Shown here: piece by piece, positions 10,806 to 24,852 of the stretch | Numbering within the stretch: the stretch's first letter is position 1 | Layout: every line of letters begins with the position of its first letter | NCBI GenBank assembly: GCA_003697105.1 | Contig: RFFQ01000144.1 | Coordinates: forward strand, 1-38,237 | Length of the DNA: 38,237 nt | Direction: 5' to 3' | Origin: Gemmatimonadota bacterium | Lineage (GTDB): Bacteria; 4572-55; J002 | Translations under genes and position numbers: made by a program | Notes under the pieces: generated by a model | What the model saw: the letters and a program-made list of their open reading frames with translations, nothing else | Databases searched by the model: none | What the model was told of the DNA's origin: nothing

Positions 10806-13800
10806 ATGAAAGAACGCTTCGCTTTTGCTTCGGCTTATCTCGAATCTGAATCCTTCCTACGTGCAAAACGGAACACCGAACGATTTCTGAAAATTCGTCC
10901 CGATGATTGGACAATTTTATTGCTTTTGTTCGGCTTGTTGTTGGCGCTCAACGTGGCACTGGGGGCGGCAGATATGCCCACCAAGGCATTGTTTTACAGC
11001 CTGATCGGCAAATCCAAAGTGCCACCGATGCTGTTTTTCAATGCGATTTTAGGGGCGACAGCGGCAATCGCCATTTCCGCATTCGTGGACAAGCTCAACA
11101 AGACCGTTCTGTTTATGTGGACAACAGCCGGCTTAACGGTTGTTGCGATTATCTCCCGTATTATTGTTGGCAATAATCCCCCCACGTGGATTCTATATTT
11201 TTTGTTTGTTTTGACGAACGCCTTTCGGGGTTTGTTGTTTATGCTGTTCTGGCTGGTAGCGGCAGAAATCTGTGACACCCGGCGGGCAAAACGCATATTT
11301 GGGATCGTCACCAGCGGCGGGACCATTGGTTCGATTCTCTGTTATTTTGTGATTAGCCGCTTGGCAACGGTCATCGGCACGGAACATATCTATGTCCTGT
11401 GGATACTCTCCCTATTTGCGTGTACGCTTATCTGCTATTATATCATCAACAATCGCTCCAAATTAGGGATTGCGGTCTCCCGTCCGGTGCGGCGCTCCTT
11501 CACGCTTCGGGATGCCGTGCAAAATGTGATCGAAGGCGCTCAAATCGTCTGGTCGGAAATCTCGCTGGCAAAAGTCCTCTTTTTTGCCAGTATTTTTTAT
11601 TTTGCGCTTTCGTACACCACCGATGTGGCGTTTGAAAGTGCGTTGGCAGACCGGCACGCGCAGGATCAGATGACCTCCGTAATGAGTCTGTTTAAAGGGA
11701 TTGCCTTTTTTGGCGCCCTCTTCGCCCAATTAATGCTCTCCAACAAGATCATCCAGAGTGTCGGGGTACACAACTCCATGCTCTCCGCGCCAATTACCTA
11801 TGCTATCGGCTTTTTAACATTGGTACTAGCCGCGTCATGGGGGGGCGGCAGTTTCCTTTACTGGACGGTGGTCATGATGGCAATCAGCCGGGACTTGATC
11901 TATTTCTCCATCTACAGTCCCGGTTACCAATCCATGTACAATTCCATTTCGGAGGATAAACGGGGGCGAGCCAAAGCCTTTGCCGACGGGGTGGGTGTGC
12001 CGATTGCCGGCGGAATTGCCGCCATCATCACCGGCGCCATGACCCATCCCGATTTGGAAGCTTGGTACGGCGTGATCATGCTGATACCCTTCATGCTGAG
12101 TTTAGCCTTTTTGTATGTCGGTTTTCGGGTAGGACGTACCTACTTACAAGCGTTGATGCAGGATTTACAAAAAGATGAAATCGTTTTTGAAAAAGAAACC
12201 CGGGCAGAGGTGGATGCGTTATTGCGTTCCCTCACCGGCGAGGACAAAGAGACAGCACTCCATGCCGCCCGCCGGATCGCAACCCAAGGGCACGGCAACC
12301 CGCGGATACCCGCCGAAATGCTGAATCTGTTTGGCAACATCAGCCTCAGTGATGTGAAATTGGAAGTCATCCGCACACTCGGTCAAATTGGGGATGAACA
12401 AACCGCCGCCGAATTGCTAAAACTATTGAAATCGGGCCAGCCAAAACCGATCCAGCTCGCCATTATCCATGCCTTGTGCCGGCTCAACTATGCCCCCGCC
12501 GTGGAGGTGATAAAACCCTATTTTGAAGATACCGTCGGCGACATGGAATTACGAGCCGCCGCTGCCGCAACACTGATGCACTTTGGCGATGAAACGGGTA
12601 CTGAATTTTTGCGAAACTTGCTCAACGATACCTCTTCTTCACGAAAGTTAGCGGCGCTGAAAACCATCGCCGAAATACCGGCGCCAGCATTGGTCAACGA
12701 GATCAACCAGACCTTCAAAACCACCATCACGGATATTCGCCGCTATGCTTGCCGGGCACTGGGCTGGATTCAAGAGGATAAAGCCATCCGTCCCCTTATT
12801 GTGGCGATGTCGGATCGGGATAGTACCGTTCAGGAGGCCGCGCAAGAAGCGTTGGTCAATCACGGTGAACGCATCTTGAAACCGTTGTTAGTCTGGCTGC
12901 GCAGTACACAAAGTCATGCTTCTGCGGACCTCCAACAGCGAATTGTCCATGTCATGGGTCGTGTGGAAGGGGAGCAAGGTGAGCAAGCATTGATCGAACT
13001 GCTCTCTTCAGATAATGACTTGCTCCGTACTGCTGCAATCAGCGCCCTTGCCTCGCGGGGCGAATTGCGGGAACGAGAACGGCTCGAACAGTACATCTTA
13101 GAAGAAATATCCACCATTTACCGCAACCTACTCTATGTTGCACTACTGGATACAAAGCCCTACCAAGATACCAAAGCCGGCACCATGATCCGAATTCTGC
13201 TGTTAGAAGAAAATGACCGCAAAAAGGATCAGATCATCCAAGCCGTCGGGCTACTGGCTCAAGAGCTTGACGCGCTGGAGTTGGTCGCCCGCAAAATTAA
13301 AAGCCCCGATAATTTCATCCGGGCAAATGCACTGGAAACACTGGAAAATTTCGGTGACCGGATCGGCAGCCGTAGTCTGATCAAACATATCCTGCCCCTG
13401 ATGGAATCCCCCCATAATGAGAACATTTTGAACCGGTTTCGGAGTGTGAAACAAGGTTTAGGTGCAAATGTCCAGCGTGTGCTGGTTGCGTTGTTAAAAA
13501 GTTCCAACCCCATTGTGCGGGCATGTGCCGTTTATCTGATCGGTGAAGTTCGCGAACAAAAACTGATGGGGATCATGAGTGAATCCTGTAGCCTCGATCC
13601 AGATTTGTTGGTACGAGATAATGTGAAAGTTGCAGTCAACCGGATTGTCTTCCCCAACCGCCCGGAAGACCCCGATCGCCCCATGACCCCGCTGGAGAAA
13701 ATATTCTTTTTGAAAAAAGTACCCCTCTTCCAAAACATGATGGCAGAAGATATTCGCCGCGTCGCCGACATTTGCGAGGAGCAAAAAGTAAATGCCGGAA

Positions 13801-14180
13801 CCATTATCATGAAAGAAAATGAACCCGTGGACTCCCCCAAACTATACGTGGTCGTCAGTGGAATGCCTCCGCAAATGAGTAATCTCAATCCGCAAGGTGT
13901 CTCCATCCCCAAATTCAAAAAAGAAGGGCAATACTTTGGCGATATTGAAGTTTTTAGCCCCGAAACCAAACCGGTCGCGGCTTCCACCGTTGAGACCAGT
14001 TACGGCGATGCCCGTCTGTTTGTGATTGATGGGCGGCGACTCCGCGCCGAAATGGAGCGCAACCCAACTATGGCGATTGAAATTTGCCGGGTTTTCAGCA
14101 AAAATGTTCGGGATACAATGAAATTGGTCGTCAATGACCATTATGCCCAGCTTCCCACTTGGGGTGAAAACGGAAAGTAA
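10806..14180 (+). CDS. Nucleotide-transporter-like membrane protein fused to HEAT repeats and a cNMP-binding-fold domain
   Basis: 1124 residues. Residues about 35-450 form a polytopic MFS-like region resembling Npt1/ATP-ADP translocase-type carriers (D-M-P-T-K-A-L-F-Y near 58; about 11-12 helices). Residues about 470-960 are HEAT-like helical repeats (A-A-x-x-L-L-K-L-L, A-L-x-x-L and similar). Residues about 967-1105 are a cyclic-nucleotide-binding-fold domain starting F-L-K-K-V-P-L-F. In the phosphate-binding cassette, F-G-D-I-E-V-F...K-P-V-A-A-S, the Arg of the usual P-R-A-A-T is replaced, so cAMP binding is doubtful. It lies 3 bases before a free-standing paralog of its last domain. The transported substrate, if any, is unknown; HEAT and cNBD parts probably serve regulation or protein contact. 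Confidence 0.85.
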   Translation: MKERFAFASAYLESESFLRAKRNTERFLKIRPDDWTILLLLFGLLLALNVALGAADMPTKALFYSLIGKSKVPPMLFFNAILGATAAIAISAFVDKLNKTVLFMWTTAGLTVVAIISRIIVGNNPPTWILYFLFVLTNAFRGLLFMLFWLVAAEICDTRRAKRIFGIVTSGGTIGSILCYFVISRLATVIGTEHIYVLWILSLFACTLICYYIINNRSKLGIAVSRPVRRSFTLRDAVQNVIEGAQIVWSEISLAKVLFFASIFYFALSYTTDVAFESALADRHAQDQMTSVMSLFKGIAFFGALFAQLMLSNKIIQSVGVHNSMLSAPITYAIGFLTLVLAASWGGGSFLYWTVVMMAISRDLIYFSIYSPGYQSMYNSISEDKRGRAKAFADGVGVPIAGGIAAIITGAMTHPDLEAWYGVIMLIPFMLSLAFLYVGFRVGRTYLQALMQDLQKDEIVFEKETRAEVDALLRSLTGEDKETALHAARRIATQGHGNPRIPAEMLNLFGNISLSDVKLEVIRTLGQIGDEQTAAELLKLLKSGQPKPIQLAIIHALCRLNYAPAVEVIKPYFEDTVGDMELRAAAAATLMHFGDETGTEFLRNLLNDTSSSRKLAALKTIAEIPAPALVNEINQTFKTTITDIRRYACRALGWIQEDKAIRPLIVAMSDRDSTVQEAAQEALVNHGERILKPLLVWLRSTQSHASADLQQRIVHVMGRVEGEQGEQALIELLSSDNDLLRTAAISALASRGELRERERLEQYILEEISTIYRNLLYVALLDTKPYQDTKAGTMIRILLLEENDRKKDQIIQAVGLLAQELDALELVARKIKSPDNFIRANALETLENFGDRIGSRSLIKHILPLMESPHNENILNRFRSVKQGLGANVQRVLVALLKSSNPIVRACAVYLIGEVREQKLMGIMSESCSLDPDLLVRDNVKVAVNRIVFPNRPEDPDRPMTPLEKIFFLKKVPLFQNMMAEDIRRVADICEEQKVNAGTIIMKENEPVDSPKLYVVVSGMPPQMSNLNPQGVSIPKFKKEGQYFGDIEVFSPETKPVAASTVETSYGDARLFVIDGRRLRAEMERNPTMAIEICRVFSKNVRDTMKLVVNDHYAQLPTWGENGK

Positions 14181-14183
14181 CCT

Positions 14184-14660
14184 ATGAAAACGGCGAAAGA
14201 ACGAAATCTCTTCCTAAAAAACATTGATCTGTTTGCCAATATGACGGACGATGAGCGGGAACTCATCGGCCGATTCTCGCGGATACAAAGCTTTAAACCG
14301 GGACAGATCATCATCAAGGAAGATGAACACGAAGAGGCTCTCAACCTCTATATCGTTATTAACGGTGAACTCGCCATGTTGAAAACGGTAGAAACCAAAG
14401 AGGGAGAACGGGTTGAAAAGATTTTTCGCTACTTGAAGGATGGTGACTATTTCGGGGAAATTGAAGTGTTCGTTGGTGAAACCTTGCCAGCATCAGCCAC
14501 CATCATTGGCGTTACAGAAGGACGAATGCTGGTCATCGATGGTAAAAAATTTTTAACAGTACTTAATAAATACCCTCATTTAACAATCCAAGTTTGCGGG
14601 CAATTTAGCCGCCGAATGCGCGAACTCAATAAGGCACACGTCACCGGCGAGGTGACTTGA
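14184..14660 (+). CDS. Stand-alone cNMP-binding-fold protein
   Basis: 158 residues, almost entirely one cyclic-nucleotide-binding beta-roll with a C-terminal helix and no DNA-binding domain. It begins L-F-L-K-N-I-D-L-F-A-N-M and contains Y-F-G-E-I-E-V-F ... L-P-A-S-A-T-I. The Glu of the phosphate-binding cassette is kept, but the Arg of P-R-A-A-T is Ala-Ser. The same features and the ending M-L-V-I-D-G-K-K align with the C-terminal domain of the preceding gene (L-F-V-I-D-G-R-R), so the two are paralogs. It starts 3 bases after that gene and is surely co-transcribed. Likely a soluble partner or regulator of the transporter-HEAT protein. Confidence 0.85.
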   Translation: MKTAKERNLFLKNIDLFANMTDDERELIGRFSRIQSFKPGQIIIKEDEHEEALNLYIVINGELAMLKTVETKEGERVEKIFRYLKDGDYFGEIEVFVGETLPASATIIGVTEGRMLVIDGKKFLTVLNKYPHLTIQVCGQFSRRMRELNKAHVTGEVT

Positions 14661-14676: not shown

Positions 14677-15318
14677 ATGGAACAAGAAACCATGAGTTTA
14701 CTCTCGATTTTGCTCAAAGGGGGATTTTTGATGATCCCGCTGGCAATCTGTTCATTTATTGCCACTGTGATTATTATCGAGCGTCTTTTTGTCCTCAACC
14801 GCGCGAAAATTGATACTGAAAAATTTATGGAGCGGATTAAACATACCGTCTCGCAGGGCAATGCGCAAGCCGGGTTGATGCTGTGCGAGGATAAACAAGG
14901 ACCTATCGCCACCATCGTTAAAGCCGGTTTAGAGCGCCATGACCGCCCGCGGGAGGTTATCCGTGAGGCAATTGAAAACGCGGGTAAAACGGAAATTTAT
15001 ATGCTCGAACGCGGACTGGGTACACTGGCAACCATTGCCGGAATTGCGCCGTTACTCGGTTTTTTAGGGACGGTCACTGGTATGATTCAGGCTTTTATGA
15101 AAATTGCCGAATTGGAAGGCAACGTCAATCCCTCCATTCTTGCCTCCGGTATCTGGGAAGCGTTGCTGACAACCGCCGTGGGTTTAGCAGTGGGCATCCC
15201 CGTGTTGATCTTCTACAACTATTTGGTCGGGAGAGTCCAGCGGTTCGTGTTTGAGATGGAAAAAAGCTCCACTGAATTGGTTGATGCGTTGATCTGGGCA
15301 CAGGAAAATAAAACGTGA
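14677..15318 (+). CDS. MotA/TolQ/ExbB-family proton channel protein
   Basis: 213 residues with three membrane helices (about 15-38, 120-145, 160-185). The family block is intact: L-x-T-I-A-G-I-A-P-L-L-G-F-L-G-T-V-T-G-M-I, then L-L-T-T-A-V-G-L-A-V-G-I-P. Such proteins use the proton gradient together with an ExbD/TolR/MotB partner to drive movement or transport across the envelope. The ATG at 14677 has AAGGAGAAGG at 14661-14670. It follows the cNMP-fold gene by 16 bases and is the last gene before a terminator. No ExbD/TolR/TonB gene follows, so its partner is either elsewhere or different. Confidence 0.93.
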   Translation: MEQETMSLLSILLKGGFLMIPLAICSFIATVIIIERLFVLNRAKIDTEKFMERIKHTVSQGNAQAGLMLCEDKQGPIATIVKAGLERHDRPREVIREAIENAGKTEIYMLERGLGTLATIAGIAPLLGFLGTVTGMIQAFMKIAELEGNVNPSILASGIWEALLTTAVGLAVGIPVLIFYNYLVGRVQRFVFEMEKSSTELVDALIWAQENKT

Positions 15319-17703: not shown

Positions 17704-17741
17704 GTTTAAAACAAGACCTGAAAGGCGTACCTTTCAGGTCT
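17704..17741 (-). terminator. Rho-independent terminator of the membrane-protein operon
   Basis: AGACCTGAAAGG (17714-17725) and CCTTTCAGGTCT (17730-17741) form a perfect 12-bp stem with a four-base loop. Read on the minus strand it is followed by TTGTTTT. It lies just after the last gene of the operon (stop at 17752) and 34 bases before the 5'-nucleotidase start, so partial read-through could supply that gene. Confidence 0.85.
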
Positions 17742-17751
17742 AATAACGGAC

Positions 17752-18408
17752 TTACATACCTCCACCGCTTGCTATCTTGATCAGTTCCCCGATCCAGTCT
17801 TGGGTCAAAAACTGAATCCGGTAGATGAGCAGAGCGGCACGCGCCATCACGGTGAAACCAAAGGAAACCCCGAAGGATGCCATCAACCACCAAATACCAA
17901 CGATGCGGGTATATTCATGTGCTTTTTCCAACGCCGGGTTGTGAATCCGGCGAAAATAGAAATAACTGAGAATACAGACCACACCTAACCAAATCACAAC
18001 ATGATCAAACGATTTTTGCAGGTCACCCGCCACATAAAGCGATTTAACCGTACCTTCCAGCGCTTCAATAATATAACTGGACATGATACGTTCCAGACCT
18101 AACCCGGAGAAGGCGCCCAGAACCATCGCCAACGGAATCAGAGATAACCAGCGCACTTTTTGAAACGGTTGGGCTAACCACAACGCCCCAATTAACGTTG
18201 GAAGAATCAGAATCCAATTCGCCGCAAAATCTGTGGTCACCGGCACCCAAAACAAGCGGAGGAAAATCTGGCGATAGGTAAGAACAACGCCATAACCAAG
18301 CGAAATTCCTAAAATTAGGTGTTCGATGAATCGGGAAACGATATTTTCTTTCCAGACGAGAGACATCGCCCCCAGGGTTAGTAGCGCCGCAATTGTTGTC
18401 GTTAACAT
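17752..18408 (-). CDS. Uncharacterised polytopic membrane protein (operon gene 4)
   Basis: 218 residues with about six or seven hydrophobic segments (about 3-18, 30-48, 60-80, 88-108, 138-152, 170-195). It has no signal peptide and no family motif that I recognise. Conserved-looking spots include N-P-A-L-E-K-A-H-E-Y-T-R-I-V near 158 and the Gly-rich end G-G-G-M. The ATG at 18408 has GGAGG 8 bases upstream and lies 3 bases after the preceding gene. It is the last of four tightly linked membrane genes and is followed by a terminator. It is probably an integral subunit of a complex with the other three. Confidence 0.85.
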   Translation of the reverse strand: MLTTTIAALLTLGAMSLVWKENIVSRFIEHLILGISLGYGVVLTYRQIFLRLFWVPVTTDFAANWILILPTLIGALWLAQPFQKVRWLSLIPLAMVLGAFSGLGLERIMSSYIIEALEGTVKSLYVAGDLQKSFDHVVIWLGVVCILSYFYFRRIHNPALEKAHEYTRIVGIWWLMASFGVSFGFTVMARAALLIYRIQFLTQDWIGELIKIASGGGM

Positions 18409-18411
18409 CGA

Positions 18412-19491
18412 TTATGCCTCCTTCTTGCGGTTAAGAAAATATTGAATGTTCCCGATGAGCACCAAAATCAAGATACAGGCATGAACCAGCGCCAACGAGG
18501 GCATTCCACGAGAGGCACCCCCCACATAGGCGGCAATAACTTCCTTTGGAAAGCCGGCTTGTTCCATCTGTTTTCGGAACAAATCTGCAGATTGGTACTG
18601 GTTATTCACATACGTTTCAATTTCGGTCGCACCTCGATAACCCGGAATCACGCTGATCATCTGTTCCGCCTGCAAAAATTGATATGCTTCGGGGGCGGAA
18701 ATGGCGGTCGTTCCGGCGAAATAGGTAATCTCATCCCGATAATCGGAAGACCAGATGATCCAAGATTGATAACTGCTGGTACCGGTTATATCAGCGCAGA
18801 ACAGCAAATCCCCAAACCCATCAATCGGTTGTAAAATAGGCCAATCGTCTCGCGTCACCGTTTCCAGTTGTTCTTTCAGAAGTTGGTACACGGTTTCACC
18901 CAGTTCTTCTTGATGTTGGTCGAGCAAATGCGCGGCAATGTACCGGTCTTCACCAATCGTGGTGGCAATCGAATTTATCACGGATTCCACAGATGGGTTT
19001 GAGGTCACCAAATCCGTGTATTCTGAAGGGTCTAAATGAACCATATCCCCCACACTGATACTGCCGGTTTGTTGTTTGTAATCCCGGCCCCATCCCAAAA
19101 TAAAGGCATCATAGGGATAGCACAGCCCTAAATTTAGATAATCTTCACCGGGTTTTTTGCCATAGGTTTTACCCAGAGTGGAGATCACCCCTTCGGCAAG
19201 CTGTGCCGGCTCTGGGAAAAACCCGCAGATGATAACATTCACGTCTTTAAGGAAACACAGACGGATGAGCGCAACGGCGATAGGTTCCGTTTCGGCAATC
19301 GAGCTACCGGCATAATTGATGGAGATCATTGCCGTAGAGCCCGGTTCTGCATTTTCAATAAGATGTACCGCATTTTGGACTTCGGGAGAAAGCGGCATCG
19401 TGATTTTGATCGGGAGATAAACCCCTAAAACCACAGAGATTAAGACAACGGTATTGATAATAACCCGGGTCGTAAAAATCTTTTTCCACAT
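18412..19491 (-). CDS. Uncharacterised bitopic membrane protein with large globular domain (operon gene 3)
   Basis: 359 residues from ATG 19491, which overlaps the preceding stop by one base and has GGAGGT 8 bases upstream. A frame from 19512 is possible but less likely. An N-terminal membrane helix (about 7-28) precedes a long soluble domain (about 35-325), and a second helix lies at about 330-350 before a basic tail N-R-K-K-E-A. The soluble part alternates strands and helices (G-S-T-A-M-I-S-I-N-Y, K-D-V-N-V-I-I-C-G-F-F, Y-D-A-F-I-L-G-W-G), like a Rossmann-type alpha/beta fold. No catalytic motif is clear. The two helices suggest both ends are cytoplasmic with the domain outside, but the opposite orientation cannot be excluded. 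Confidence 0.85.
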   Translation of the reverse strand: MWKKIFTTRVIINTVVLISVVLGVYLPIKITMPLSPEVQNAVHLIENAEPGSTAMISINYAGSSIAETEPIAVALIRLCFLKDVNVIICGFFPEPAQLAEGVISTLGKTYGKKPGEDYLNLGLCYPYDAFILGWGRDYKQQTGSISVGDMVHLDPSEYTDLVTSNPSVESVINSIATTIGEDRYIAAHLLDQHQEELGETVYQLLKEQLETVTRDDWPILQPIDGFGDLLFCADITGTSSYQSWIIWSSDYRDEITYFAGTTAISAPEAYQFLQAEQMISVIPGYRGATEIETYVNNQYQSADLFRKQMEQAGFPKEVIAAYVGGASRGMPSLALVHACILILVLIGNIQYFLNRKKEA

Positions 19492-20132
19492 TAGGCACCA
19501 CCTCCCATCCACGAGCGTTCAATCCCGAAAATGATACGGATATTTGTGGCTAACATACCCACCGCCACCCCGATCAGGATAGCACGTTTCGCCGCCACAT
19601 TACCCGTCATCAGAAACCACGTACTAAACTCATTCCAATATTGACCGAATGGGATGTAGGTGTGCATCCCCGTGTTCGTGACCATTACTAATACGGCAAA
19701 GACCATCAGTAACGAGGTATGTGCCCGGCTGACGCGGAAGGCACGGTACGCGGCACTGGCAATATAAAAGGTCAACAGAGAGAACATGGTTGAGGTCACC
19801 GGAATTTGAATATTCCGAAACATCCAGTCAAATAAACTGCCTTCGGCGTTACTTTTCAATCCGGAAATCAACATCGTAAAAAAGGCAACATAGGTTACGC
19901 CGGCTAAAATCGCTTTTTGGGTGGTCGGATTTCGATCCCGCTTGGTTAAACGCCGCCCATAAGAGGCTAACGTCACGTACGTTGCCGGAACAATTGCCCA
20001 CATACTCAGCAGCGGCGCCCAACTGCTGGCTAACCGCACCGCACCTTCGGACCAGCTCGTTTCAATAAATGTAAGCAACACGTATATTATTCCGAGTATA
20101 AATACCAGAAATAACGGTATATTTCGTTGCAT
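19491..20132 (-). CDS. Uncharacterised polytopic membrane protein (operon gene 2)
   Basis: 213 residues with about six membrane helices (about 5-22, 38-56, 75-93, 110-130, 140-156, 180-200). A hydrophobic stretch T-S-T-M-F-S-L-L-T-F-Y-I-A-S-A-A-Y-R-A-F-R and the C-terminal part (A-K-R-A-I-L-I-G-V-A-V-G, then R-I-I-F-G-I-E-R-S) look like conserved signatures rather than random membrane sequence. The ATG at 20132 has AGGAGG 5 bases upstream. It lies 18 bases after gene 1 and overlaps gene 3 by one base. I recognise no transport or enzyme family. Confidence 0.85.
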   Translation of the reverse strand: MQRNIPLFLVFILGIIYVLLTFIETSWSEGAVRLASSWAPLLSMWAIVPATYVTLASYGRRLTKRDRNPTTQKAILAGVTYVAFFTMLISGLKSNAEGSLFDWMFRNIQIPVTSTMFSLLTFYIASAAYRAFRVSRAHTSLLMVFAVLVMVTNTGMHTYIPFGQYWNEFSTWFLMTGNVAAKRAILIGVAVGMLATNIRIIFGIERSWMGGGA

Positions 20133-20150
20133 TCTTCCTCCTAAATCACG

Positions 20151-21005
20151 TTAAAAGAAGCTTTGAATCGTCGTTGCCAGCGCCCCCACAATCAACGCTG
20201 TAAATAACAAAGATTTGATCAAGTCCTGAGCGACCACCGAGTTCACCAGCCGTTTTTCTTCCGAAAGTTGCGCCCCGGCGGCATAGAGTTCTTCCCCTAA
20301 AAGGGCTTTATCCGAAGCGGCAACCGCAAACGGCATCTGCACCACGGAATCCACCCCAGAAAGCACCATTGCTCCGTTCATCGTAGCGGCTTCCAGCATG
20401 ATCAACATTTCCGCCCAGAACATCCCGGCAAAAACGGCAAAGCCATGCCGGTCCCGCTCCAATCGACCGGCGACTAATTGCGCATGGGTAAACTGAACAG
20501 TCGATGCCAAAAAGACATCGGAATGGGTGCTGGGGTAATCCGGTCGTCCTTTGAGCATTGCCCGCTCTTCTAACAACGACTTGGTAATCGGCATCACCAT
20601 ATAATCTCGTTGGGGCGAATCAATGAACACATCCAGATCGATGGCTTCATCAATCGTGACCGAACCTATCGCCAATCCGGCAATCGTCGCCACATCACTG
20701 GGTGAGGAAGTTCCCGGCACAAACATACAGGGACGTCCCATCTCTGCACAGCGACCGATCCCTTCCCGGATGAACTTTCGCGGAATGACTTCCCGAATTT
20801 CACTCGCGTGAGATTTTTGCTCATAGGCATATTTAACGATCACCGAAATCAGCAAAACCAATGCAATAAACGACACGGTTTTGTCAACCGGAAAAAACCC
20901 CAGAAAGAGATCACCAGCATGTTGGTTTGTATAGGGAAAAATGAGAAGAAGGACAATCGGGAGGACAACCACAAGCAGAACATTAATCAGTATAGATCGG
21001 TTCAT
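20151..21005 (-). CDS. Membrane protein resembling the DUF6754 family (operon gene 1)
   Basis: 284 residues. Two N-terminal membrane helices (about 5-24 and 43-60) precede a soluble alpha/beta domain (about 70-255), with a third helix about 262-280. The soluble domain has G-R-P-C-M-F-V-P-G-T-S (90-100), S-D-V-A-T-I-A-G-L (103-111), an internal hydrophobic helix about 188-206 and L-L-G-E-E-L-Y-A-A-G-A-Q-L-S (235-248). The G-R-P...P-G-T...A-T-I-A-G and G-E-E-x-x-A-A-x-A-x-L-S layout matches my recollection of the uncharacterised DUF6754 family; this needs a profile search. It is the first gene of the operon, behind a good promoter. Biochemical function is unknown. Confidence 0.8.
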   Translation of the reverse strand: MNRSILINVLLVVVLPIVLLLIFPYTNQHAGDLFLGFFPVDKTVSFIALVLLISVIVKYAYEQKSHASEIREVIPRKFIREGIGRCAEMGRPCMFVPGTSSPSDVATIAGLAIGSVTIDEAIDLDVFIDSPQRDYMVMPITKSLLEERAMLKGRPDYPSTHSDVFLASTVQFTHAQLVAGRLERDRHGFAVFAGMFWAEMLIMLEAATMNGAMVLSGVDSVVQMPFAVAASDKALLGEELYAAGAQLSEEKRLVNSVVAQDLIKSLLFTALIVGALATTIQSFF

Positions 21006-21066
21006 AAAAATCCCTTTCCCGAAAAGTAAGGAGTGAAAAGGTTAAGATCATCAAAGTTGATGCCGA

Positions 21067-21095
21067 ATCCTACCATAAATCTAGGCAGAAATCAA
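21067..21095 (-). promoter_or_regulatory. Sigma70-type promoter of the four-gene membrane operon
   Basis: On the minus strand TTGATT (plus-strand 21090-21095) and TAGGAT (21067-21072) are 17 bases apart, about 62 bases upstream of the ATG at 21005. It is back to back with the helicase promoter at 21117-21144, so the two transcripts diverge from a compact control region. Confidence 0.55.
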
Positions 21096-23376: not shown

Positions 23377-24852
23377 ATGAGTGACATTCTCGTTGCCCAA
23401 TCCTATTTTCTCAAATTTGATCCTAAAGAATGGAAAACCATGAAGCCCTATCCGCCCCTCGGGGCGATGTACGGGGTCAGTGTACTGCGAGAAGCCGGTT
23501 ATAATGCCCGCTTGTTCGATTGTATGCTTGCCGAAGATGAAACCGAGTTTTTGGCGGCATTGGAACGGGAAAAACCACAATATGTGGTCGTTTATGATGA
23601 CGATTTTAACTACTTAACCAAAATGTGCCTCCTGCGGATGCGGGAAGCCGCCTTCAAATTGGCAAAATACGCGAAAAAACACGGATGCACAACGATCATC
23701 CATAGCTCGGATGCCACCGATCGACTCGAATTATATCTGGATAGCGGCTTTGATTATGTCATCATCGGCGAGGCGGAATTTACTCTGCGCGAATTGATCG
23801 GGGAACTCACCGGGCACGCACCGCACCCCATCCCGGAAATCAACGGTTTGGCATACCGCCGGACAGAAAAAACCGTCCGGAATGCTCCGCGCAAAGTCGC
23901 GGATGATCTGGATGTCTTCCCATTTCCCGCGTGGGATCAGGTCGATATTGAGAAATACCGGCAAAAGTGGTTGGCTCATCACGGCTATTTTTCCCTCAAT
24001 TTAACCACCACCCGAGGTTGCCCCTTCCATTGTAACTGGTGTGCCAAACCGCTGTACGGACAAGTGTACCATAGCCGCAGCCCGCAAAATGTGGTGGACG
24101 AGATTAAAATGTTAAAAGAAAAATATCAACCGGATCATATCTGGTTTGCCGATGATATTTTTGGATTGCGTCCCAACTGGATTCAGGAATACAGTGATTT
24201 GGCAAAAGCGCAAGGGGCAGTGATTCCATTTAAGTGCCTCTCCCGGGCGGACTTACTCCTACGCAAGGATACCATCCCCAAATTAAAACAAGCAGGCTGT
24301 GAAATCGTCTGGATCGGTGCAGAATCCGGTTCCCAAAAAATTCTGGATGCGATGGATAAAGGTACAACGGTTGCACAAATTTACGAAGCCACCCAAAAAA
24401 TTCATGAAACCGGTTTCCGGATCGCGTTTTTTCTCCAATTTGGCTACCCCGGGGAACTGCGCGAAGATATTGACAAAACCATCCGCATGGTGAAGGAATG
24501 CCAGCCGGATGAAATCGGAATCTCCGTCTCGTATCCCTTGCCGGGTACTCCGTTTTATGAAAGCGTTAAAGAACAACTAGGCGATAAACAAAACTGGGAA
24601 GATAGCGAAGATTTAGCCATGCTCTTTCAAGGGGCATATGTCCCGGATTTTTACCGCATCCTGCACAAAGTGGTTCACAAAGAATTGCGCCTTTTGCAAT
24701 GCAAAAATGCATTGACCCATCTCTTCCATGAACTCAACCCCCAAACGGTTAAAAGTGTATTGGGCTACCCGATCCATTTGTTACAACTGTTGCGCTACCG
24801 CCAGCAATTGGCACAACTGGAAAAAGTGCCCACCGCCGTCTATTGGAAATAG
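23377..24852 (+). CDS. B12-binding-domain radical SAM protein
   Basis: 491 residues. An N-terminal cobalamin-binding-like domain (about 1-150) starts with the usual P-P-L-G-A-M-Y-G-V-S-V-L-R-E-A-G-Y. The radical SAM domain (about 200-400) has the 4Fe-4S motif C215-P-F-H-C219-N-W-C222 and the G-A-E-S-G-S motif. A helical C-terminal region ends the protein. Such enzymes use S-adenosylmethionine radical chemistry on lipids, tetrapyrroles or glycans, often for methylation. The substrate is not deducible. AAGGA lies upstream of the ATG. A glycosyltransferase follows 53 bases later, which hints at envelope or natural-product modification. The 176-base gap before it shows no clear promoter or terminator. 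Confidence 0.92.
   Translation: MSDILVAQSYFLKFDPKEWKTMKPYPPLGAMYGVSVLREAGYNARLFDCMLAEDETEFLAALEREKPQYVVVYDDDFNYLTKMCLLRMREAAFKLAKYAKKHGCTTIIHSSDATDRLELYLDSGFDYVIIGEAEFTLRELIGELTGHAPHPIPEINGLAYRRTEKTVRNAPRKVADDLDVFPFPAWDQVDIEKYRQKWLAHHGYFSLNLTTTRGCPFHCNWCAKPLYGQVYHSRSPQNVVDEIKMLKEKYQPDHIWFADDIFGLRPNWIQEYSDLAKAQGAVIPFKCLSRADLLLRKDTIPKLKQAGCEIVWIGAESGSQKILDAMDKGTTVAQIYEATQKIHETGFRIAFFLQFGYPGELREDIDKTIRMVKECQPDEIGISVSYPLPGTPFYESVKEQLGDKQNWEDSEDLAMLFQGAYVPDFYRILHKVVHKELRLLQCKNALTHLFHELNPQTVKSVLGYPIHLLQLLRYRQQLAQLEKVPTAVYWK

Follow-up and report, generated by a model that had tools for sequence, protein, structure and literature searches.

Four genes on the minus strand of a 38,237-nucleotide stretch of contig RFFQ01000144.1 (assembly GCA_003697105.1, a Gemmatimonadota bacterium), hereafter the window, encode closely packed membrane proteins that we label G1 to G4 in the order of transcription (Table 1). 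An initial annotation made from the sequence alone had given their lengths as 284, 213, 359, and 218 residues and the spacing of G1/G2, G2/G3, and G3/G4 as 18, -1, and 3 bases; a check of the frames agreed on both counts and showed all four to be intact. For G3, an alternative GTG start at 19512 would extend the protein to 366 residues. The strong ribosome sites attributed to the last three genes were also present, and the site of G1 is weak. As for the single promoter and single terminator credited to the set, the terminator is plainly there, but the promoter is unconfirmed, as a search of the minus strand upstream of G1 gave no sigma-70-like candidate.

The subunits could be placed with varying precision. 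G1 had been described as a three-helix protein resembling DUF6754; the helices and the alpha/beta domain stand, but mere resemblance understates the case, as G1 is a member of that family (PF20539; E-value 5.9e-55, 186.6 bits against a cut-off of 27, profile positions 5–249 of 257). Its layout comprises a first transmembrane helix, a short outer loop, a second helix, a cytoplasmic six-strand alpha/beta domain, and a third helix. In most relatives, the loop after the first helix carries an FN3 ectodomain—FN3-like in its consensus, with the Pfam fn3 model reached by 6 of 80 sequences. G2 and G4, correctly read as polytopic, have about six transmembrane helices each by hydropathy; alignments revealed a conserved SAxYRAFR motif in G2 (55 homologs) and, in G4 (53 homologs), invariant E29 and H156 together with a conserved C-terminal motif of the FGxSFGFTVMxR type. 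G3 had been taken for a bitopic protein, but membrane helices lie at both its N- and C-terminal ends, flanking a six-strand alpha/beta domain that is predicted to be extracytoplasmic. Residues E67, H337, and N348 of G3 are invariant in alignments, and the window copy carries an insertion of ~70 residues near positions 140–215 relative to homologs. H337 and N348, like E29 of G4, are polar residues in or near membrane helices.

Charge bias across the families, including 72 G3 homologs, points to a topology in which the G1 domain is cytoplasmic and the G3 domain lies on the outer side, and the outer-side assignment fits both the FN3 domains of G1 homologs and an insertion in one G2 homolog, a 591-residue protein with five FG-GAP repeats between its membrane helices (locus L069, 12722–14497, plus strand). 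AlphaFold2 models of G1 (predicted local distance difference test, pLDDT, 88.0; predicted template modelling score, pTM, 0.80; alignment of 46 sequences) and of G3 (pLDDT 85.6, pTM 0.82; 72 sequences) show the same six-strand order, which led us to consider homology between the two domains; profile comparison lent this no support, and the idea was dropped. Scans of G2, G3, and G4 with Pfam, NCBIfam, and PADLOC models gave noise only.

The same genome encodes a canonical module on a second contig (C135), where the four genes recur in identical order. A scan of named genome contigs yielded 574 related stretches, from which the best 79 loci were kept, and profiles seeded from both copies of this genome showed G1-G2-G3-G4 in order in almost all of them; record titles assign these to Zixibacteria, WOR-3/Stahlbacteria, Fermentibacteria, Cloacimonadota, Latescibacteria, Neomarinimicrobia, Eisenbacteria, Coatesbacteria, Gemmatimonadota, Planctomycetota, Riflebacteria, Muiribacteriota, and others. 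Of 91 modules in which the contig extends at least 2.6 kb downstream of G1, 88 are complete and ordered G1-G2-G3-G4, with a median gap of 4 bases; a masked stretch and seemingly broken frames are among the three exceptions. Modules often occur in tandem, two or three per locus, and adjacent pairs numbered 121 for G1–G2, 113 for G2–G3, 112 for G3–G4, and, in tandem modules, 35 for G4–G1. Distance matrices of the four proteins correlate with one another (r = 0.77–0.86, 83 modules), and shuffling partners within loci reached the observed correlation in 0 of 500 trials for each of the six pairs. Within-locus shuffling controls for species, and its outcome shows that the four genes travel together, also in genomes with several modules, a statement about inheritance as distinct from contact. 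Conserved co-occurrence and order across phyla, put forward in the initial annotation as the mark of a complex, are thus borne out, and its reading of a four-subunit membrane complex is supported. One natural G3–G4 fusion frame (L097) retains its internal start and is weak evidence; long G4 frames in L094 and L102 were considered as fusions and dismissed as frame-call artefacts.

Contrary to what had been proposed, the operon is not self-contained, for genomes with the module almost always carry additional partners as well. The C135 module is preceded by the gene for a 381-residue soluble protein, which we named G0, and clustering of neighbouring genes yielded a 600–640-residue PF13941 protein of the MutL/GlmL type, an ASKHA ATPase, as well as two small proteins, C1 (~115 residues) and C9 (~140 residues), which are often present. 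MutL/GlmL-type ATPases are unrelated to the mismatch-repair protein MutL. The long MutL recovered here has a C-terminal extension, and its ATPase motifs, CGSTTTKA and GxDIGGATTD, are at least 95% conserved. Both partners are present in this genome, G0 on C135 and, on contig C6, a MutL gene (a PF13941 member at 432.6 bits) with C1- and C9-like genes.

We measured co-occurrence in 290 genomes drawn from the same domain and for the most part from separate families. DUF6754 was detected in 77 genomes, G0 in 72, all inside those 77, and long MutL in 72, of which 70 lie inside the 77; Fisher values for these associations ignore genome relatedness. Seven genomes have the short GlmL-type MutL alone, none of them with DUF6754. 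Copy numbers differ, with 148 DUF6754 genes in the 77 genomes (up to 7 per genome) and G0 mostly single. Physical linkage is likewise recurrent: adjacent pairs numbered 26 for G0–G1, 22 for MutL–G0, 19 for C1–MutL, and 14 for C9–C1, and six loci (L140, L189, L190, L198, L199, and L200) hold a single operon C9-C1-MutL-G0-G1-G2-G3-G4, or nearly so. Seven loci encode MutL and G0 as one frame of ~950–1030 residues, apart from the membrane genes (Table 1). G0 itself has a barrel-sandwich region with weak Biotin_lipoyl and RnfC_N matches, and one relative gave a weak KOW match; this soluble protein may be made up of barrel-sandwich, alpha/beta, and KOW-like regions. Profile searches of G0–G4 against the PDB gave nothing credible, the best for G0 being the RNA polymerase beta' sandwich region (E 0.012). 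One locus of genome G061 (L145; 9079–11199 and 6212–8422, both minus strand) encodes G3 with a 400-residue N-terminal extension and has a MutL-type gene directly after G4.

Table 1. Coordinates of the window module, its signals, and MutL–G0 fusion genes at other loci
Feature	Sequence	Coordinates	Strand	Remarks
G1	Window	20151..21005	-	284 aa, DUF6754 protein
G2	Window	19491..20132	-	213 aa, polytopic
G3	Window	18412..19491	-	359 aa, ATG start
G4	Window	17752..18408	-	218 aa, polytopic
Shine-Dalgarno of G2	Window	20136..20142	-	AGGAGGA, sequence reading
Shine-Dalgarno of G3	Window	19500..19506	-	GGGAGGT, sequence reading
Shine-Dalgarno of G4	Window	18417..18423	-	AAGGAGG, sequence reading
Intrinsic terminator of operon	Window	17714..17741	-	12-bp stem, then T-run
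MutL–G0 fusion	L133	6322–9171
MutL–G0 fusion	L134	6826–9663
MutL–G0 fusion	L135	2–3106
MutL–G0 fusion	L136	5132–8089
MutL–G0 fusion	L137	894–3932
MutL–G0 fusion	L138	492–3527
MutL–G0 fusion	L149	8878–11925

Within its genome, the window module is a divergent second module, a paralog of the canonical one on C135. Identity between the two is ~32–34% for G1, G2, and G4 and 26% for G3; the C135 G1 begins with a signal-like N-terminus and carries an FN3-type ectodomain, which is missing from the window G1, and the window module has no adjoining G0. It ranks with the most divergent modules overall: the window G1 scored E 4e-55 in the genome survey, against ~1e-100 or better for most, the closest relative of the window G3 among 386 genomes searched is ~35% identical in its best-matching part, and a tree places the window copy on a long, weakly supported branch. 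It nevertheless keeps the invariant charged core of G1 (R71, R85, E88, R184, E199, E205, D232, E238, E239, D261, and K264), and since all frames are open as well, the window copy is probably no relic but a working module that has become specialised.

The conserved set and its order, co-inheritance, co-occurrence with partners, operon linkage, MutL–G0 fusions, and conserved ATPase motifs together give good support to a complex and its partners, and we consider it very likely that G1–G4 form one complex and that MutL and G0 belong to the same system. Taken as a combined statement, that G1–G4 are the membrane part of an ATP-driven machine working with MutL and G0, the proposal is one that we favour with some reserve, and that the work is transport-like we put forward tentatively, at somewhat less than even chances. 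Physical assembly, topology, coupling to ATP, and transport-like work are inferred. In the arrangement we envisage, G1–G4 would form one inner-membrane complex with G2 and G4 as its polytopic core, the G1 alpha/beta domain on the cytoplasmic face, and the G3 alpha/beta domain on the outer face, with the long MutL-type ASKHA ATPase, a soluble adaptor (G0), C1, and C9 as the other parts. The ATPase would dock via G0 on the cytoplasmic G1 domain and hydrolyse ATP, and the resulting movement would be relayed by the G2/G4 core to the G3 domain on the outside and, in modules that have one, to the G1 FN3 ectodomain. A substrate would thereby cross the membrane or be handled there. One ATPase/adaptor set would serve one to seven membrane modules, which would confer specificity, and modules with different ectodomains would share one ATPase.

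Several observations weigh against this interpretation. G0 or long MutL went undetected in 5–7 of the 77 DUF6754 genomes, some of which are incomplete. Foldseek searches of the G1 and G3 models against the PDB gave no match at E ≤ 0.001, so that no fold points to a transporter, and both models are of monomers. No substrate gene recurs among the genes beside modules. Finally, the window proteins retain only part of the conserved positions of their families (44 of 70 highly conserved positions for G1, 27 of 36 for G2, 15 of 25 for G3, and 28 of 43 for G4), and this copy may therefore be specialised.

We weighed other explanations against the same evidence. A possible, if improbable, alternative is a membrane-bound enzyme complex that makes a surface polymer or a lipid. 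Its active site would be the conserved charged pocket of DUF6754, and MutL would be its partner, either a kinase or an ATP-dependent ligase. In its favour are the dense invariant polar set of G1 (R71, R85, E88, Q171, R184, E199, E205, Q223, D232, E238, E239, D261, and K264) and a weak likeness in fold between G1 and SIS sugar isomerases, MurQ among them (TM-score ~0.33, E 0.008); kinases occur among ASKHA proteins, and acetophenone carboxylase, which came up in a search of the ASKHA literature, is an ATP-dependent enzyme (PMC5214803). On the other hand, the neighbour clusters contain no conspicuous glycosyl or lipid genes, and the G3 domain on the outside, like the FN3/FG-GAP ectodomains, points to a role at the membrane. 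Those ectodomains would also suit a surface receptor, adhesion, or signalling complex that binds outside and signals through its cytoplasmic domain and the MutL-type ATPase, a possibility that we rate slightly lower still. The FN3-like consensus of G1 relatives, the FG-GAP repeats inserted in the L069 G2, and the differing ectodomain lengths of several modules per genome all agree with it, but the window module lacks any notable ectodomain, conservation is highest in the cytoplasmic domain and the membrane core, and the neighbours include no conspicuous gene for a signalling output.

Maintenance of a cobalamin enzyme is unlikely. Here, the MutL-type ATPase and G0 would reactivate or load a B12-dependent enzyme, and G1–G4 would be either a channel for corrinoids or a corrinoid enzyme bound to the membrane; PF13941 proteins are indeed B12 mutase accessory proteins according to the NCBIfam GlmL models, and B12-binding proteins are present in some DUF6754 genomes, this one included. 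Yet the L036 homolog of the partner ATPase scores 221.9 bits against a cut-off of 475 for the GlmL equivalog (NF040745), and two genomes that hold the system (G152 and G126) have only single, partial PF02310 matches in radical-SAM-like proteins, that of G152 below the family cut-off. This far-off score and these weak or partial matches, which reveal no B12-dependent mutase client in either genome, are what make the B12 explanation unlikely; in addition, the DxHxxG motif is not conserved in the consensus sequences of G0–G4. That four unrelated membrane genes are neighbours by mere chance is refuted by the conserved order and co-inheritance of the set elsewhere, and we give the idea practically no credence.

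Three further plus-strand genes of the window drew attention. One encodes a protein of 1124 residues whose sequence suggests a membrane carrier, with HEAT-like repeats and a tail that binds nucleotides (10806–14180); beside it lies the gene for a cyclic-nucleotide-binding protein (14184–14660). The product of the third looks like a radical-SAM enzyme and has a weak B12-binding match (23377–24852).

Our search of the literature, which covered open-licence papers, found no published account of DUF6754 or of the system. Since PF20539 has no function attached either, we call the system of G1–G4, MutL, and G0 undescribed, and it seems new in kind. The module is present in about a quarter of a broad genome sample (77 of 290), in up to seven copies each, and yet no subunit has an assigned function and three of the four lack a family model. 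Its persistence in a 0.9-Mb genome (G198) suggests a basic role. Once the set and its ATPase partner have a name, four genes listed as "hypothetical" become a single system that can be tested. Our bolder suggestion, advanced with less than even confidence, is that the system represents an ATP-driven membrane machine of a new class, possibly a transporter, for which an ASKHA ATPase related to the accessory proteins of B12 mutases was recruited to power membrane complexes, with one ATPase/adaptor set serving up to seven interchangeable four-subunit modules. Such a machine would be common in uncultivated phyla, both within the FCB group and outside it.

In keeping with the initial annotation, which had noted no assigned function, profile and fold searches gave no match to a described transporter or enzyme complex, and PADLOC models for anti-phage defence matched none of seven proteins. 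G1 belongs to PF20539, although the Pfam entry gives neither a function nor a link to G2–G4 or to MutL and G0. No subunit of Rnf or Nqr was matched by G1–G4 in Pfam or NCBIfam, and the barrel-sandwich region of G0 is weakly like RnfC_N (22.0 bits against a Pfam cut-off of 25.6). Genes of TonB-ExbB-ExbD and Mot motors are sometimes neighbours of modules—a MotA/TolQ/ExbB protein lies ~2.4 kb beyond the G4 end in the window (14677–15318, plus strand), and ExbB/ExbD/TonB genes adjoin modules in Fermentibacteria and WOR-3 loci and stand upstream of the full operon in L140—but G2 and G4 match neither the MotA_ExbB nor the ExbD models. The partner ATPase is a member of the MutL/GlmL family (PF13941) and shares its ASKHA phosphate motifs; it differs from GlmL in its length of ~600–640 residues, its C-terminal extension, a score far below the equivalog cut-off, and its linkage to a membrane module instead of a mutase. 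ECF-type (energy-coupling factor) transporters combine a shared ATPase module with swappable membrane parts. Neither a Walker-type ABC (ATP-binding cassette) ATPase nor an ECF subunit was found among the parts with Pfam and NCBIfam, and the likeness to ECF-type transporters lies in the proposed logic only, in which one energising set would serve several membrane modules.

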